In this document: positions 23,776 to 31,101 of the stretch, piece by piece
Numbering within the stretch: the first letter of the stretch is position 1
Layout: every line of letters starts with the position of its first letter
Assembly: GCA_018970085.1 (NCBI GenBank)
Contig: JAGWXD010000026.1
Location: forward strand, 1-43,759
Source: Cyanobacteria bacterium REEB459
Lineage (GTDB): Bacteria; Cyanobacteriota; Cyanobacteriia; Phormidesmidales; Phormidesmidaceae
Direction: 5' to 3'
Length of the DNA stretch: 43,759 nt
Made by a program: the position numbers and the translations under genes
The notes under the pieces: generated by a model
Database searches by the model: none
What the model was told of the DNA's origin: nothing
Seen by the model: the letters and a program-made list of their open reading frames with translations, nothing else

Positions 23776-24912
23776 ATGGAGTTTGAAACCCAGGTCGTTT
23801 ATGGTGCCAATACCCTTGACCCAGCTACCGGGGCCTTAATATCGCCGATTTACCTATCCACCACCTTTGAGCGGTGCGCTGACGGTAGCTATGGGGGTGG
23901 GTACAGCTACGGTCGCAGTGGTAATCCTAACCGTAATACCCTGGAGTCGGCCCTAGCGACCTTGGAGCAGGGGGTTGACGCAGCGGTTTTTGCCTCTGGC
24001 TCCGTGGCTACCCTGAGTTTGTTGCAAACTCTCAAGCCTGGGGATCATGTGGTTGCCCCCACCAGTGTTTACTTTGGGGTGCAACAAATGCTGGAAAAGA
24101 TCCTGGGGCCTTGGGGTCTTGCCTATACCCTGGTGGATACCACTGACCTAGGGGCTCTAGCTAGTGCGCTGCGTTCCCAAACTCGCCTGGTTTTAATCGA
24201 AACCCCCTCTAATCCCCTGCTAAAGGTTAGCGATGTCCGGGCGGTTGCCGACCTGGTTCACCGCGCCGGTGCTTACCTGGCCTGTGATAACACCCTTGCC
24301 TCACCGGTGCTGCAAACCCCTCTCACCCTGGGGGCAGATTTTGTGATTCATGCCACGACTAAATACCTGGCCGGCCACGGCGATGTGATTGGGGGAGCGG
24401 TGATTACCCGCGAGATAAATCCTCTTTTTGAACAGCTACGGTTGATTCAAACCGTGGGTGGAGCGATTCCCTCACCCTTTGATTGCTGGCTCACCCTACG
24501 GGGTCTGCAAACCTTACCCCTACGGGTGCGGGCCCAGAGCCAAACAGCCCAGGCGATCGCCCACTGGCTTGACCAACACCCTGCCATTGAAGCCGTCCTC
24601 TATCCGGGGTTAGAGCATCATCCGGGGCATCGCATTGCCCAGCAGCAAATGGCGGGGTATGGCGGGCTGCTATCGGTGCTGGTGAGGGGGGGACAGACCG
24701 CTGCTCTGCGGGTTGCTGCCCAAACTCGGCTTTTCACCCAAGCCACCAGTTTTGGCGGTCCCCACAGTACCCTGGAGCACCGGGCCTCGGTGGAAGCCCC
24801 TGGCACCCAAACACCGACCAATCTGCTACGGCTTTCTATTGGCCTGGAGCACGAGCATGACCTGAAAGCCGATCTGGACCAGAGCCTACAGTCTATAGAA
24901 ACTGAGCCCTAG
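23776..24912 (+). CDS. metB: Cystathionine gamma-synthase-like PLP enzyme
   Basis: A Cys/Met-metabolism PLP enzyme of 378 residues. It most likely joins an activated homoserine to cysteine to give cystathionine; methionine gamma-lyase or cystathionine gamma-lyase are alternatives in the same fold. The PLP lysine is K196 in IHATTKYLAGHGDVIGG. YSYGRSGNPNRNTLE near residue 50 supplies the phosphate-binding Tyr/Arg of the neighbouring subunit, and the SFGGPHSTLEHRAS segment is typical of the family C-terminus. It begins 20 bases after the porin terminator. Its stop overlaps that of the convergent PBP gene by three bases. Confidence 0.82.
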   Translation: MEFETQVVYGANTLDPATGALISPIYLSTTFERCADGSYGGGYSYGRSGNPNRNTLESALATLEQGVDAAVFASGSVATLSLLQTLKPGDHVVAPTSVYFGVQQMLEKILGPWGLAYTLVDTTDLGALASALRSQTRLVLIETPSNPLLKVSDVRAVADLVHRAGAYLACDNTLASPVLQTPLTLGADFVIHATTKYLAGHGDVIGGAVITREINPLFEQLRLIQTVGGAIPSPFDCWLTLRGLQTLPLRVRAQSQTAQAIAHWLDQHPAIEAVLYPGLEHHPGHRIAQQQMAGYGGLLSVLVRGGQTAALRVAAQTRLFTQATSFGGPHSTLEHRASVEAPGTQTPTNLLRLSIGLEHEHDLKADLDQSLQSIETEP

Positions 24913-27239
24913 GGCGTGCTTCCCGGTCCCCCTGAGGGCAATGGGGCTGGTGCTAAGGGGACCGGCGGTGGAGCTGGGGGAGCCGGACTGACGACAGGGG
25001 GAGGGGTTGGATCTGGAGTATGCTGACGCGGTGGCTCGGGTATGACGGGGGGCTGAGGATCAGGCAAAGTCGGCACCTCAGGAACTGGGGCCGGAGTTAG
25101 GCCTGGAGAGGCCGAGCCAGAGGACCCCGTGGAGGGTTCCTGATTGGTGGAAGATTTACTCGGATCTTGGGATTTTGACTTAGATTCAGTATCGCTGGTG
25201 GCATCCACTGGTGGATCGTTGCTAACCCGACTGGGCTTAATTGGCTTGGCCTTAATGCTGCCCTTACGGCCCGCCAGGCGGGGCAACTCAGGAAATTTCT
25301 CCACCGGGATATCATCTGTGAGTTGGGCCATAAACATGCGCCAGATAGCGGCGGCGGTACCACTAGCCCCCCGGGTAGGACTACTATCGTCCTTACCCAT
25401 CCATATCCCAGCTACCAGTTGGGGAATATAGCCAATAAACCAAAGATCGCGGTTTTTCTCAGAGGTACCAGTCTTACCTGCTACAGGTCGGCCCAGAGAG
25501 GCACTGGTCGCCGTGCCTCCTTGGACGACTCCTTGGAGCATCCAGGTCATAATGGCGGCGGTGTCTTTATCGACCGCCTGGGTAGATTTCTTGGGAGCCT
25601 GGTAAAGAACTTTGCCCTGGCTATTCCACACCCGCCGAATACCGTGGGCTGGCACATGGCGGCCTTGATTGGCCAGGGTGCCGTAGGCGCTGGTTAACTC
25701 TAGAAGGTTGACCTCTGAAGAGCCCAATGCCAGAGAATAGGCCGATAACAAGGGAGACTCGATGCCCATCGCCTTGGCGATTTTGACCACTGGGTCAAAA
25801 CCCACATCTATCAGCAGCTTGACCGCCACCACATTGACAGAGTGACGCAGTGCATCCAGTAGGTTAACCTTACCGCGGTAGTTTTTATCGTAATTCTCGG
25901 GCTGATAGGCATCAACCGTGTAGGGAGCATCGACGTACTCCTTATAGGGGGAGAAACCAGCCGCAATAGCCGTCGTGTAAACAAAGGTTTTGAAAGTAGA
26001 GCCGGGCTGGCGCTGGGCCTGGGTAGCCCGGTTAAACTGAGTTTTATTAAAGTCGTTGCCCCCTACCATGGCTTTGATTTCCCCAGATCGGGGGTCAACC
26101 GCCGCCAGGGCCACCTGGTCGATGCCCTGCCAGCGGCTGTACTGCTCGATCGCCTGGTCTACGGTTTTTTCTGCCTTTTTTTGCCAGTTAACATTGAGAC
26201 TGGTCTCTACCGTTAACCCACCTGCTGCCAGTTGTTCAGGGGATAGGACCTGTTCTAACTGCCTCTGAACATAGATGGTGAAATAGGGAAACTGACTGTA
26301 GAGAAATTTGGGTTGTTTGGGCTGGATCTGAATCGGGGTCGCGATCGCCGCATTCGCCTCAGCGGCGGTAATTGCTTTGGTCGCCAGCATTTGCCGAATC
26401 ACCCGGTTACGCTGATTCTGGGCTGCTTGAGGATTAACCACTGGCGAGTAACGGCTGGGGGCGGGGGCCATACCAGCGATCATGGCCATTTCCGCCACGG
26501 TCAACTGCTTCATGGTTTTACCAAAATATACCCAGGCCGCATCAGCCACGCCGTAGGCCCCAGAACCCAGATAAACCAGGTTCAGGTACCGCTCCATAAT
26601 CTGATTTTTCTTGAGTTTCTTCTCTAGTTTGTAGGCCATCAGAATTTCCTTAGCTTTGCGCTGGAAACTCTTATCTTGATTTAGGTAGACAATCCGAGCT
26701 AGTTGCTGAGTGATGGTACTGGCCCCTTCGACCACATCTCGCTGGCGCAAATTAGCCCAAACAGCTCGACCAATACCATGGGCATCCACCCCTTGGTGTT
26801 GATAAAATCGCTGGTCTTCAGCCGCAATGAAGGCCTCGATCAGCCGGGGAGGAATGTTTTTGTAGGCAATGGTTTCATGGGCCCCCGGCCCGATTTTTTG
26901 TAACACTACCCCGTCTGCCGACACCATGGTCAGGGTGCCGTCTCGTTGATAGGTAAGGGCTAGCTTAGCATCGGGAAGACTGGCATAGGTGGTTTGGGCC
27001 AGAGCCCAGACCCGGGTCAGCCCGCCTGCCCCCAGGGCACTGACCAGCATCAGCAACCACAGCAGGATCTGGGGTCTTTCGCTGGGGGGAAGCCACCCCC
27101 AGCCCCGTCGGTTAGAACCTGGCCGCGGCTGGGCTGCACCCTGGCGACGGGAAGAAACGGTACGGGAAAAGTTGACCGACCCGGCTGCGGGTGATGGACT
27201 GCGGTAGGGAGATAGCCAGATCAACCAAGGTCGGGGCAT
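24909..27239 (-). CDS. Class A penicillin-binding protein (GT51 + transpeptidase)
   Basis: A bifunctional peptidoglycan synthase of 776 residues. A basic cytosolic N-terminus (1-55) precedes one membrane anchor (about 57-79). The glycosyltransferase-51 domain has catalytic E141 in AAEDQRFYQHQG and EGASTITQQLAR. The transpeptidase domain has S414-x-x-K417 (GSTFK), S467-x-N469 and K589-TGT. All catalytic motifs are intact. From about 670 to the end the chain is a low-complexity Ser/Thr then Pro-rich tail, probably disordered and periplasmic. The ATG at 27239 is preceded by a T-rich stretch without a Shine-Dalgarno. PBP1A-like in layout; I leave the symbol open because cyanobacteria have several. 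Confidence 0.93.
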   Translation of the reverse strand: MPRPWLIWLSPYRSPSPAAGSVNFSRTVSSRRQGAAQPRPGSNRRGWGWLPPSERPQILLWLLMLVSALGAGGLTRVWALAQTTYASLPDAKLALTYQRDGTLTMVSADGVVLQKIGPGAHETIAYKNIPPRLIEAFIAAEDQRFYQHQGVDAHGIGRAVWANLRQRDVVEGASTITQQLARIVYLNQDKSFQRKAKEILMAYKLEKKLKKNQIMERYLNLVYLGSGAYGVADAAWVYFGKTMKQLTVAEMAMIAGMAPAPSRYSPVVNPQAAQNQRNRVIRQMLATKAITAAEANAAIATPIQIQPKQPKFLYSQFPYFTIYVQRQLEQVLSPEQLAAGGLTVETSLNVNWQKKAEKTVDQAIEQYSRWQGIDQVALAAVDPRSGEIKAMVGGNDFNKTQFNRATQAQRQPGSTFKTFVYTTAIAAGFSPYKEYVDAPYTVDAYQPENYDKNYRGKVNLLDALRHSVNVVAVKLLIDVGFDPVVKIAKAMGIESPLLSAYSLALGSSEVNLLELTSAYGTLANQGRHVPAHGIRRVWNSQGKVLYQAPKKSTQAVDKDTAAIMTWMLQGVVQGGTATSASLGRPVAGKTGTSEKNRDLWFIGYIPQLVAGIWMGKDDSSPTRGASGTAAAIWRMFMAQLTDDIPVEKFPELPRLAGRKGSIKAKPIKPSRVSNDPPVDATSDTESKSKSQDPSKSSTNQEPSTGSSGSASPGLTPAPVPEVPTLPDPQPPVIPEPPRQHTPDPTPPPVVSPAPPAPPPVPLAPAPLPSGGPGSTP

Positions 27240-27322: not shown

Positions 27323-28339
27323 CTAGGTTGCCAGTAGTCCATGGCCAAAGGCCAGGCCCGCTACCAGCATACCCAACACCAGAAAGGGCTGGGCTCTGGC
27401 TTGATAGGTAACATCGTTAGCCAGGGGGTCCCGCAGGAAATACATATCCTGCAAGGTAATCTGGGGAATAATCAGCAGAATCAGGATCACGGCGTAGAGG
27501 TTTTGATGAATGGCGATTAGATAGGCGGCGATCGCCCCTTGAAAAATATCAATCATCAACACACAAATCCAGGCGGCCGAACCAATGCCAAACATAACTG
27601 GCAGCGACTTCAGCCCCATCTGGCGATCGCCCTCAACACTTTTAAAATCGTTGACGATGGCGATTCCCAGACCGGCCAGACTGTAGAACAGGGTGAGCAC
27701 CACCAGGGTGCTGTTGAGGTCCCCAAACAGGGCATGGCCGGCCCACCAGGGCAGGGCAATGTAGCTGGCCCCCAGGGCGTAGTTGCCCAGCCAGCCATTT
27801 TGTTTCAACTTTAGGGGCGGAGCCGAATAGATATAGGACAACAGGGCTCCCCCCAGGGCCAACCCCGTAATCGTGGGAAAACTATGACCAGCCCAGCGAT
27901 CTAGGGTGTAGGCCAGGGCCACCCCAAGCCCCAGAAGTAGCCAGATTTGGCCAATCACCTGGGGGATAGAAATGGCCCCCGAGGGAATGGGGCGGTAGGG
28001 TTCGTTGATGGCGTCAATGTCGCGATCGTAAAAATCGTTGAGGGTCTGGGTATAGCCCGTTAACAGGGGGCCAGATAGCAACATACAGGCCGCTGAAATC
28101 ATCACCTGCTCCAGGCTCCAGTGAAACTGCCCAGAGGATGCCGCCCCACACACCACCCCCCAGATCAGAGGGATCCAAGTAATGGGCTTCATTAATTGCA
28201 GGCGAATTTTCCAGATCGAGGTTTCACCACTTTTTGCCCCCTTCATCCCTAACAGCTGGCGGGCTGCACTGCCCTGGTCGGTAGTCGGTTCGGGAAGGGG
28301 GGGGCGATCGCCCGGTGGCGAGGCGAGGGGTTCAACCAT
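27323..28339 (-). CDS. chlG: Chlorophyll synthase
   Basis: A UbiA-type prenyltransferase that attaches phytyl (or geranylgeranyl) to chlorophyllide, the last step of chlorophyll a synthesis, in the thylakoid membrane. The protein has 338 residues and about eight to nine membrane helices. The first Asp-rich motif is NDFYDRDIDAINEPYRPIPSG (about residues 121-141). The second is NDFKSVEGDRQMGLKSLPV (about 229-247). The first 40 residues are Pro-rich and variable. Third gene of the minus-strand group petP-arsA-chlG, 61 bases after the ATPase stop. Presence of this gene shows a chlorophyll-making organism. Confidence 0.96.
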   Translation of the reverse strand: MVEPLASPPGDRPPLPEPTTDQGSAARQLLGMKGAKSGETSIWKIRLQLMKPITWIPLIWGVVCGAASSGQFHWSLEQVMISAACMLLSGPLLTGYTQTLNDFYDRDIDAINEPYRPIPSGAISIPQVIGQIWLLLGLGVALAYTLDRWAGHSFPTITGLALGGALLSYIYSAPPLKLKQNGWLGNYALGASYIALPWWAGHALFGDLNSTLVVLTLFYSLAGLGIAIVNDFKSVEGDRQMGLKSLPVMFGIGSAAWICVLMIDIFQGAIAAYLIAIHQNLYAVILILLIIPQITLQDMYFLRDPLANDVTYQARAQPFLVLGMLVAGLAFGHGLLAT

Positions 28340-28400
28340 AGTAAACCTTCAGGGATAGATAGGGCAAAGGCGATCGCGGCGGAGAGCGAGAAGGGCTGGT

Positions 28401-29501
28401 TCAAGCAAAGGAAATCACCAGATACTGGTCTTGAAATCTGGCCCCAGTCACAGACTTACCCTGCAGCTCCGATGGCAGAGCCAGGTTACGCCGTTGGTTA
28501 CCAGCTTGCACCGTCACCTCTGGACCCGACTGGGTTAACTTCACCTGACTTTTATCAAAACTGGGCAAAAACAACTTCACTACCCGACCACCCAGGTCCA
28601 CAACGGTAGCCCGGTTAGCGGTCTGGGCCAGATGCTGGGGATCCGGCAGATTAGCCATGAGAGCGCCCCAACCAGCCTCAGTTTGTTCAGGCATAGAAAA
28701 ATGAGGCAAGGGGGCAAAGGCCTGTTCATACTCCAATCCCAGTGCCCCCTGATGAACCAGGACCCCTGCTACGGTCAGGCCAATCTGCTGAGCACTCCCC
28801 CAAAGATAGCGGGCAGTGGCAATGGCGGCCGCCGCCGGGGTAGTCACCAAAAAGGCCAGCACCCGCTGGGGATCGCTGACCGCATCGCGGCCTAACTGCA
28901 GTAGGGACCTCACCTCTCCGGTGGGTTGCTCCAGTAAATCCCCCGACCAATCTACAGCCAATACCGTTGCGGCGATGGGTTGAAGTAGGGGAGAAACAGT
29001 GCGCACTAGATCGGATTGCTGAAAAACTCCGCGAAACCGCCGCACATACCAGTCCAGCACCTCGGGCAAACCAAACATCCGTAAGGTCGCCATGGCCTGG
29101 TTACCATCGTAAACAATCACATCATAATCGCCACTGGCGTCGTACTCCCGCAGAGCGTTGAGGGCCAGAGCTTCGTCCATACCAGGCAATATCGCCAATT
29201 CCTGGCCGTAGATATCCTTTAGAAAAGGAGTGCGGAGATAGCGTCCTTCTAAGGCCTTAAGACTATCCCAGCTATGCTCTAACAAATCGGTGGTGTGGAC
29301 CTGCAGAGCCCATAGCTGGGGCTCAATTTCTTGCCGCACCGGACCCAGGGCTGCTCCCAACACAAGTCCGGGAGCAGGGGTGACATCCTGAATCATCAAT
29401 AAAACTCGCCGACCCTGGGCTGCCAGTTGCTTAGCTGTGGCAATGGCATAGGTGGTGCTGCCACATCCCCCTTTGCCTAAGAAGGTCAAAATTTGAGCCA
29501 T
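28401..29501 (-). CDS. ArsA/Get3-like ATPase with C-terminal Hsp20-like domain
   Basis: A 366-residue ATPase of the ArsA/Get3 group. The deviant Walker A loop is FLGKGGCGSTT (residues 7-17). The switch regions are degenerate: an intact DxxPTGHTLR-like segment is not obvious, though VYDGNQAMATLRMFGLPE occupies its place (about 131-149). From about 295 onward is an ArsA_HSP20-type beta domain (VVDLGGRVVKLFLPSFDKSQV to QDQYLVISFA). Get3 proteins deliver tail-anchored membrane proteins; ArsA powers arsenite export. No arsenite gene is near. The position between petP and chlG points to thylakoid membrane-protein handling, which is inference. Divergent switch residues mean ATPase activity is not certain. 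Confidence 0.85.
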   Translation of the reverse strand: MAQILTFLGKGGCGSTTYAIATAKQLAAQGRRVLLMIQDVTPAPGLVLGAALGPVRQEIEPQLWALQVHTTDLLEHSWDSLKALEGRYLRTPFLKDIYGQELAILPGMDEALALNALREYDASGDYDVIVYDGNQAMATLRMFGLPEVLDWYVRRFRGVFQQSDLVRTVSPLLQPIAATVLAVDWSGDLLEQPTGEVRSLLQLGRDAVSDPQRVLAFLVTTPAAAAIATARYLWGSAQQIGLTVAGVLVHQGALGLEYEQAFAPLPHFSMPEQTEAGWGALMANLPDPQHLAQTANRATVVDLGGRVVKLFLPSFDKSQVKLTQSGPEVTVQAGNQRRNLALPSELQGKSVTGARFQDQYLVISFA

Positions 29502-29526
29502 AGCTTTATTACAAACAACAAGAAAC

Positions 29527-29724
29527 CTAGGCTGGACCTAGTTCATCTTCAAAGAACCAGGTGGCATATTGGTCATCAAAACTGACAACAACGCCAACGC
29601 CACTACCGTCCACCATTTTAAACTGACTCACCAGTCCACTTTTACCCAGGTAGCCGGCCACATCTTTGGATACCCGATCCCTGAGGCGCATAACTTTAAC
29701 TTTTTGGCCAATCTCTAAAGCCAT
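29527..29724 (-). CDS. petP: Cytochrome b6f complex subunit PetP
   Basis: A 65-residue soluble protein of the DUF2862 family, identified in cyanobacteria and red algae as the cytochrome b6f-associated subunit PetP that affects electron flow and complex stability. The sequence MALEIGQKVKVMRLRDRVSKD, then DGSGVGVVVSFDDQYATWFFEDEL, is characteristic. It folds as a small SH3-like barrel and sits on the cytosolic face. I chose ATG 29724 because it matches the family start; the frame stays open to 29760. First gene of petP-arsA-chlG, 25 bases before the ATPase gene. Confidence 0.92.
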   Translation of the reverse strand: MALEIGQKVKVMRLRDRVSKDVAGYLGKSGLVSQFKMVDGSGVGVVVSFDDQYATWFFEDELGPA

Positions 29725-29926: not shown

Positions 29927-30700
29927 ATGCTAGCCAAACGAATTCTTCCCTGTTTAGATGTCAACGCTGGCCGGGTGGTGAAGGGCATTAATTTTGTTGA
30001 TTTAAAAGACGCAGGCGACCCGGTCGAGCTAGCCCAGGCCTACAACGACGCAGGGGCCGATGAGCTGGTATTTCTCGATATTACCGCCACCCACGAAGAC
30101 CGGGATATTATTTACGACGTCGTTTACCAAACCGCCGAGCGGGTATTTATTCCCCTGACCGTTGGTGGTGGCATTCAATCCTTAGAGACAATTAAACAAC
30201 TGTTACGGGCCGGGGCCGACAAAGTTAGCATTAATTCTGCCGCGGTCAAGCATCCTGAGTTTGTCCAGGCAGCCAGCGATCGCTTCGGCTCCCAGTGTAT
30301 TGTGGTCGCCATCGATGCCCGACGCCGCCCTGGTTCTGAAGCTCCTGGCTGGGATGTTTATATTCGCGGCGGTCGGGAAAATACCGGTCTCGACGCCCTT
30401 GTCTGGGCCGAGGCCATGGTGGCCCGAGGCGCGGGAGAACTGCTAATTACCAGCATGGACGCCGATGGCACCCAGGCCGGCTATGACCTGGAGTTAACCC
30501 GAGCCATTGCCGATCGGGTGCCCGTACCGGTGATCGCCTCGGGTGGAGCCGGCAACTGCCATCATATCTATCAAGCCCTCACCACCGGCCAAGCCGAAGC
30601 CGCCTTACTGGCGTCCTTGCTGCATTACGGCCAACTCACCATTGACCAGATCAAGCACCACCTCCAGGACCAGGGAGTACCGGTGCGCCTAGGGATTTAA
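29927..30700 (+). CDS. hisF: Imidazole glycerol phosphate synthase cyclase subunit HisF
   Basis: Cyclase half of the HisF-HisH complex; it uses ammonia from HisH to turn PRFAR into imidazole glycerol phosphate and AICAR. The protein has 257 residues. The catalytic aspartates are D11 ([15 protein letters not shown]) and the Asp of [12 protein letters not shown] near residue 130. Both half-barrels carry phosphate-binding loops (VGGGIQS and ASGGAGN). The frame is open from 29786, but ATG 29927 ([12 protein letters not shown]), preceded by AGGA, is the family start. It stands alone among histidine genes, as is common in cyanobacteria where his genes are scattered. Confidence 0.96.
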
Positions 30701-30795: not shown

Positions 30796-31101
30796 ATGCC
30801 TTCCATGTTGTTTCTACTGCTGGCCATTGTTATTGTTCTTGTCGCCTGGGCTCTGCGGCTGATGGATCAGGCCGTGAGGGTGCAGGAGTTTTCTCTAATG
30901 TTAGCGGGTTTCCTGGTGGCCTCTTCAGCGGCGGCCATTGTGGGGGTGTATTTTTTGATGGGTAACTATAGAGTTTACATTCACCAACAGTCAGCTCAGG
31001 TCAATGCTTTACCCGCTCCTGAGTATGCCCTTCCCTACACCGCAGCCAGTTTGGGAGAAATTGCCGATTTACCTGCCACCTGGGTGTTGTCCTCTGACTA
31101 G
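30796..31101 (+). CDS. Small two-helix membrane protein, unknown function
   Basis: A 101-residue protein with two membrane segments (about 4-22 and 35-56, LAGFLVASSAAAIVGVYFLMG). The soluble tail contains NYRVYIHQQSAQVNALPAPEYALPYTAASLGEIADLP. I do not recognise a named family. The Pro/Ala tail probably faces one compartment with the N-terminus on the same side. A regulatory-looking element with HLR1 character lies directly upstream, which would fit a light-responsive or thylakoid-related gene, but this is inference. It precedes guaD by 120 bases on the same strand. Confidence 0.7.
   Translation: MPSMLFLLLAIVIVLVAWALRLMDQAVRVQEFSLMLAGFLVASSAAAIVGVYFLMGNYRVYIHQQSAQVNALPAPEYALPYTAASLGEIADLPATWVLSSD

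Follow-up and report, generated by a model that had tools for sequence, protein, structure and literature searches.

A petP-linked Get3d protein with an eroded ATP site as a candidate holdase for thylakoid membrane proteins in cyanobacteria

In a 43,759-nucleotide stretch of DNA from Cyanobacteria bacterium REEB459 (contig JAGWXD010000026.1, positions 1 to 43,759; hereafter the window), a gene for a Get3/ArsA-like protein was found between petP and chlG on the minus strand. We identified this middle gene as get3d of the NosAFP type, a known kind of protein. Across cyanobacteria, petP and get3d form a steady pair, which chlG joins in some lineages, and the ATP site of the petP-linked Get3d is eroded. 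In our best reading, to which we assign a probability of about 0.5, this Get3d would act as a holdase for thylakoid membrane proteins, fused to an alpha-crystallin domain and with an ATP turnover that is either weak or not required. A targeting role has already been put forward in print; the apparent novelty lies in how widely petP is paired with get3d and in how far the ATP site has been lost.

The get3d gene (28401..29501, minus strand) encodes a protein of 366 amino acids with a Get3/ArsA fold and a C-terminal alpha-crystallin domain. The protein passed the equivalog cut-off of NF050088 (Get3_fold_NosAFP) over its full length, with residues 1-365 aligned on model positions 1-364 (533.2 bits; cut-off 325). 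In Pfam, residues 3-251 matched ArsA_ATPase (100.7 bits) and residues 305-365 matched ArsA_HSP20 (PF17886, 67.7 bits). The latter match falls in the alpha-crystallin (Hsp20-like) domain at residues 303-366 (28404..28595, minus strand) and bears out the Hsp20-like domain that an earlier reading of the letters, here called the sequence-only reading, had proposed. The best matches in the PDB were the Nostoc structures 3igf and 8egk (E 5e-115) and the Arabidopsis structure 8elf (E 4e-42, 148 bits). An AlphaFold model from 41 sequences had a predicted local distance difference test score (pLDDT) of 88 and a predicted template modelling score of 0.87, with low confidence at residues 175-178 and 180-190, and matched 8egk_B with a template modelling (TM) score of 0.91 and 51% identity; the strands of the alpha-crystallin tail were modelled at residues 299-365. 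The protein is without a CXXC zinc motif, and its sole cysteine, C13, lies in the P-loop.

The Pfam name, together with the score just given, would suit the ATPase of an ArsA-type arsenite pump. We rejected this candidate, which we regard as scarcely credible: the ArsA model TIGR04291 gave only 34.3 bits (cut-off 650), the protein has one core domain and not two halves, and C13 is its only cysteine. ArsA arsenite ATPases carry metalloid-binding cysteines. A Get3-type factor rather than an arsenite pump, as proposed in the sequence-only reading, is supported. Get3d was described in 2023 by Barlow et al. as a closed dimer with a hydrophobic chamber and an incomplete active site (PMC10248533).

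Upstream of get3d lies petP (29527..29724, minus strand), encoding the cytochrome b6f subunit PetP of 65 amino acids (NF050003, 105.4 bits, cut-off 65; PF11061), and downstream lies chlG (27323..28339, minus strand), encoding a chlorophyll synthase of 338 amino acids (TIGR02056, 583.1 bits, cut-off 436.45). The order petP, Get3/ArsA-like gene, chlG that had been read from the letters was thus confirmed by the coordinates and by three curated models, all over their cut-offs. The intergenic gaps are 25 bp (petP/get3d) and 61 bp (get3d/chlG), which, with the shared strand, is compatible with co-transcription of the three genes.

To place this order in a wider sample, 107 get3d loci from 105 genera (three loci share one genus) and 38 families were compared; family labels such as f1 and f2 are arbitrary labels of the genome set. 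In 88 of the 105 loci with enough sequence, a petP gene of the same strand lies upstream of get3d, at most 1 kb away. Such a link occurs in at least one locus of 32 of the 38 families, among them f33, a family that splits off close to the base of the Get3d tree. On the downstream side, 52 of 102 loci have chlG no more than 1 kb away, with at least one locus in 21 of 38 families, and both genes flank get3d in 51 of the 107 loci. The median distance between matched regions was 137.5 bp for petP-get3d and 173 bp for get3d-chlG. Among 80 named close relatives, petP was linked in 73 of 77 and chlG, at a looser score threshold, in 46 of 76. Conservation of the order, which the sequence-only reading had put forward as a check, therefore held for petP and more weakly for chlG. 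Since chlG adjoins get3d in about half of the loci, it is petP, not chlG, that is the steady partner.

As a yardstick, all open frames within about 4.4 kb of get3d at the 107 loci were clustered. Besides petP, the recurrent families were chlG (56 loci), hisF (47 loci, its homologue lying within 3.5 kb), a small open reading frame (ORF; 36 loci) and a penicillin-binding protein (34 loci); all others recurred in at most 9. The petP family comprised only 66 loci in this clustering, against 88 by profile, because PetP is short. As families other than petP, chlG, hisF, the small ORF and the penicillin-binding protein recur in so few loci, the petP-get3d-chlG order is well beyond chance.

The presence of chlG raises a different role for the protein, that of a hydrophobic ligand carrier, in which the chamber would hold a lipid or pigment precursor and the chlG neighbourhood would reflect the supply of a prenyl or chlorophyll intermediate. 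A phospholipid-like density in the chamber of Arabidopsis Get3d (AtGet3d) would agree with it, although its authors consider the lipid possibly nonspecific (PMC10248533), and so would the chlG adjacency in 52 of 102 loci. Against it, the chlG link is bound to lineage, being found in 14/14 loci of f15 and 6/6 of f32 but in 0/12 of f26, 0/5 of f23 and 0/2 of f33, and two Get3d homologues bind a tail-anchored protein (PMC10248533). We consider a ligand carrier improbable. The sequence-only reading had also placed ChlG near the membrane-insertion machinery, and ChlG does work beside YidC (PMC6175206). One ChlG frame, at G031:C1:2151440-2152357, carries one in-frame TAG.

The P-loop of the window protein (residues 9-16, GKGGCGST; 29454..29477, minus strand) departs from the intact pattern GKGGhGK[ST] at residue 15 (29457-29459), where serine replaces the Walker A lysine. 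The signature (intradimeric) lysine K10, the switch I aspartate D39 and the switch II aspartate D132 are kept. In the family, counts were made over 106 petP-type get3d loci, one incomplete locus of the 107 being left out. The Walker A position holds lysine in 12 loci, arginine in 77 and another residue in 17, and as these last members have neither, lysine or arginine at this position is not defining for the NF050088 family. The signature lysine is absent in 15 of the 106 loci and so is not defining for Get3d; these loci belong to five families (f1, f16, f26, f32 and f33), most of them have no P-loop recognisable by eye, and 10 of the 15 are still petP-linked. K10, K15, D39 and D132 occur jointly in only 2 of 106 loci. 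On a quick maximum-likelihood tree (plain LG+G4 model, P-loop columns blanked, a second paralogue included), at least nine changes between lysine and non-lysine at position 15 and at least five changes at the signature lysine were counted. These data show that the ATP site of the cyanobacterial petP-linked Get3d is eroded.

The suggestion, made from the letters, that the site may not turn over ATP as usual is thus supported by S15 in the window protein and by the rarity of the lysine in the family. Two other details of that reading were corrected. It had taken C13 for the unusual P-loop residue, but position 13 is variable (T, V, I, S and others; C in 2 of the 80 named relatives and in 0 of the 107 other loci), so C13 is not the key oddity, which is S15. 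It had also called the switch motifs degenerate, and D39 and D132 are both in place. Our counts further depart from the published account, in which the signature lysine is stated to be conserved in Get3d and an arginine at the Walker A position is stated to differ from most cyanobacterial homologues (PMC10248533), both on the conservation of the lysine and on the rarity of arginine. Pooling with the second paralogue is a possible cause of this mismatch.

We then examined selection on these genes through the ratio of nonsynonymous to synonymous substitution rates (dN/dS), quoted only for get3d pairs with dS under 1.5. For the five pairs in which both members are without the signature lysine, dN/dS was 0.044 (one pair, g2), 0.066 (one pair, g37) and 0.084-0.102 (three pairs, g62). 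Clades with arginine and the signature lysine gave 0.061-0.115 (seven pairs), and the window's S15 genus gave 0.011-0.102 (ten pairs, the window itself being too distant to count). The get3d genes without the signature lysine are therefore under purifying selection, like the arginine clades. The predicted fold is also kept in the P-loop-less homologue L211 (pLDDT 87.5, TM 0.84 to 8egk), in whose model the first helix starts at residue 12, where the P-loop would be, against residue 15 in the window model. The best conserved region of Get3d is the alpha-crystallin domain, with 27 of 64 columns at 90% conservation or more; at the same level the P-loop has 1 of 9 columns and switch I has 0 of 13.

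The REEB459 genome carries a second paralogue with a Get3 core and an alpha-crystallin-like tail, at L228:4014-5195 on the minus strand (contig C5). It is flanked by genes that, going by their sequences, we take to encode a ribose-phosphate pyrophosphokinase and a glycogen synthase. We label it Sll0086-type by features given in PMC10248533, rather than by direct comparison to Sll0086. A search with the family model found this paralogue in 21/21 genomes, and GKGGVGKT with the four catalytic residues is present in 13/13 loci. In the same 12 genomes, mean pairwise identity was 78% for the paralogue versus 41% for the petP-linked copy, the paralogue being higher in 66 of 66 pairs. Its closest PDB relatives are archaeal Get3 proteins, and across its 13 loci no conserved neighbour was found, the best family recurring in 3. 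The bit scores of Arabidopsis Get3d were 148 against the window protein, 100 against the P-loop-less homologue and 43 against the paralogue. Because of the gap between 148 and 43 bits, the plant Get3d belongs with the petP-linked copy, though it has kept the lysine.

Based on these results, we propose the following for the petP-linked protein. By homology, Get3d would be a dimer with a closed hydrophobic chamber able to hold a transmembrane helix, and it may shield hydrophobic segments of thylakoid membrane proteins before their insertion. The alpha-crystallin domain and the chamber would be its working parts, and ATP turnover in the cyanobacterial protein would be weak or dispensable. Its first clients may be small single-span subunits of cytochrome b6f or their assembly intermediates. 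Such subunits come first as candidates because petP so regularly accompanies get3d. Within b6f, PetP is located on the cytoplasmic side, and it displaces the PetG C-terminus (PMC9342900); a reasonable starting guess is therefore that small b6f subunits are held by a factor produced together with PetP. We infer holdase action in vivo, b6f clients and dispensability of ATP, and the putative link to b6f is drawn from gene order only. In print, photosystem and b6f subunits are named only as clients that Get3d might have, and chaperoning is likewise discussed as a possibility (PMC10248533).

The protein might instead be an ordinary ATP-driven Get3-like targeting factor. Its dimer would then open and close in an ATP cycle, so that tail-anchored thylakoid proteins are loaded and released, and since the signature lysine would do the work, the Walker A position could tolerate arginine or serine. 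This is in line with the retention of K10, D39 and D132 in the window protein and with published activities: Arabidopsis and Nostoc Get3d hydrolyse ATP slowly (turnover numbers, kcat, of 1.10 and 0.28 per min, respectively) and capture a tail-anchored protein whether or not the alpha-crystallin domain is present (PMC10248533). It fits poorly with the loci that are without the signature lysine, with those that have neither lysine nor arginine at the Walker A position, and with the genes that have no recognisable P-loop yet are under purifying selection; moreover, the four catalytic residues are together in 2/106 petP-type loci versus 13/13 loci of the paralogue. We judge the ATP-driven factor rather unlikely. 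A more far-reaching form of the holdase proposal, which we hold only tentatively and as less likely than not, is that the petP-linked Get3d is a decommissioned Get3 ATPase. Selection would then maintain its fold as that of a chaperone, fused to an alpha-crystallin domain and independent of ATP, that serves membrane subunits of b6f or other thylakoid complexes; the ATP site would have been lost repeatedly, the ATP-driven task would have stayed with the second paralogue, and the lysine would have survived in the plant descendant.

The distribution of the proteins was surveyed in 214 genomes of the class, drawn evenly, with matches accepted at E up to 0.001. The window Get3d had matches in 191 genomes; every one of the 23 genomes with no match is from family f2, where the family model also found 0/23. 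For PetP there were matches in 202 of the 214 genomes, and the 12 PetP-less genomes all lie outside f2. Among the 191 matching genomes, the family model found only the weaker second paralogue in G085 and G143. In G143 (one contig, 3.8 Mb), psaA/psaB are present, but neither petP nor the petP-linked get3d was found and no ChlG match reached the cut-off; a biological loss of get3d with photosynthesis retained was considered and set aside, an assembly gap being likelier. In G085 (a draft of about 260 contigs), petP and the petP-linked get3d are likewise missing. Neither genome was used as evidence. Outside the class, the NF050088 cut-off was reached in 0/58 genomes. Six genomes from other classes of the same phylum (G216, G220, G226, G235, G239 and G243) gave near end-to-end Get3d model matches at 118-140 bits, below the cut-off and with the alpha-crystallin part included. 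No psaA/psaB match was found in any of the seven out-of-class genomes searched (these six and G245), and for this reason a Get3d-like protein seems not to be confined to photosynthetic members.

Several observations weigh against a thylakoid holdase tied to PetP. All 23 genomes of f2 match PetP and ChlG and have no Get3d of either type, a family-wide loss, so Get3d is not essential to photosynthesis. Conversely, the six genomes of f13 (G013, G033, G047, G072, G083 and G114) all have Get3d and no PetP match (0/6). As f2 and f13 each have one protein without the other, PetP and Get3d are not mutually required, and 17 of the 105 loci lack the petP link. Gene order by itself can also stem from shared regulation. 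As to ATP, NosGet3d, the Nostoc protein in which the Walker A residue is arginine and switch I has a glutamate, hydrolyses ATP in vitro at the rate given above (PMC10248533), so the arginine form that prevails in the family need not be dead. If arginine is accepted at position 15, 49 of 106 loci keep K10, K/R15, D39 and D132, and the window protein itself keeps three of these. The selection analysis was limited by saturation, as 6/6 pairs of the lysine-bearing clade and 28/28 pairs of the paralogue were over the dS limit, leaving the arginine-bearing clades only as the control. Separately, ChlG scores in f13 (best E 2e-138 to 6e-149) are below those of most other families.

Some of these observations would suit a gene order without a common pathway, arising from a shared promoter region or from inheritance, with Get3d as a general stress chaperone that has nothing to do with b6f or chlorophyll. 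In f2 and f13, PetP and Get3d are found one without the other, and hisF, the small ORF and the penicillin-binding protein, with no obvious tie to b6f or chlorophyll, also recur near get3d. The petP link is, however, far broader than theirs, in loci and in families and including near-basal f33, and every remaining neighbour family stays at or below 9/107. We judge a gene order without a common pathway rather unlikely.

Beyond the three genes, hisF (29927..30700, plus strand, its start chosen by eye at an ATG) is divergent from petP on its upstream side, and beside it is the window's copy of the small ORF counted above, uncharacterised, of 101 amino acids and with hydrophobic stretches (30796-31101, plus strand). 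Downstream of chlG lies a gene for a penicillin-binding protein (24909..27239, minus strand). The names hisF and penicillin-binding protein are our assumptions from the sequences of these genes. A scan of the cluster on both strands found 1 promoter-like site (1.3 expected) and 8 terminator-like sites (3.8 expected).

Among open-licence PMC papers, no report was found of the petP-get3d-chlG gene order or of a wide loss of the Get3d ATP site. The text of PMC10248533 contains no petP, chlG, synteny, neighbor or gene order, and operon occurs there only within one reference title; the available part of PMC9958174 contains no operon, gene cluster or Get3. PMC13421787 uses the name PetP for another protein, the protease Slr0241; Get3 does not occur in the available part of that paper. 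The petP pairing in 32 of 38 families gives Get3d a concrete first set of candidate clients. The repeated loss of the ATP site would imply that a Get3 fold needs no ATP cycle to work as a holdase for membrane proteins, with a bearing on how such factors operate in chloroplasts.

Compared with known systems, the window protein is closest to NosGet3d (All4481 of Nostoc sp. PCC 7120; 3igf, 8egk), which belongs to the same family, is a full-length homologue with the alpha-crystallin domain, and has no CXXC motif and an altered Walker A site. The two differ in that the window protein has serine rather than arginine at the Walker A position and keeps D39 in switch I. Arabidopsis Get3d (At1g26090, chloroplast; 8elf) is likewise a full-length homologue with an alpha-crystallin domain (TM 0.78 to the window model), but unlike the window protein it keeps GKGGSGKT with the Walker A lysine; the A-loop is missing in both NosGet3d and AtGet3d (PMC10248533). 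Canonical Get3/TRC40 has the same fold in its nucleotide-binding core (TM about 0.55 when normalised to the model). Different from it, the window protein has no CXXC motif, no Walker A lysine and an added alpha-crystallin domain; it scored 88 bits with the Get3/TRC40 model TIGR00345 against a cut-off of 135, and has GKGGCGST in place of the intact P-loop. Both the petP-linked and the Sll0086-type lineages are called Get3d in print. The Sll0086-type paralogue shares with the window Get3d the Get3 core and the alpha-crystallin-like tail, and differs from it by its intact ATP site.

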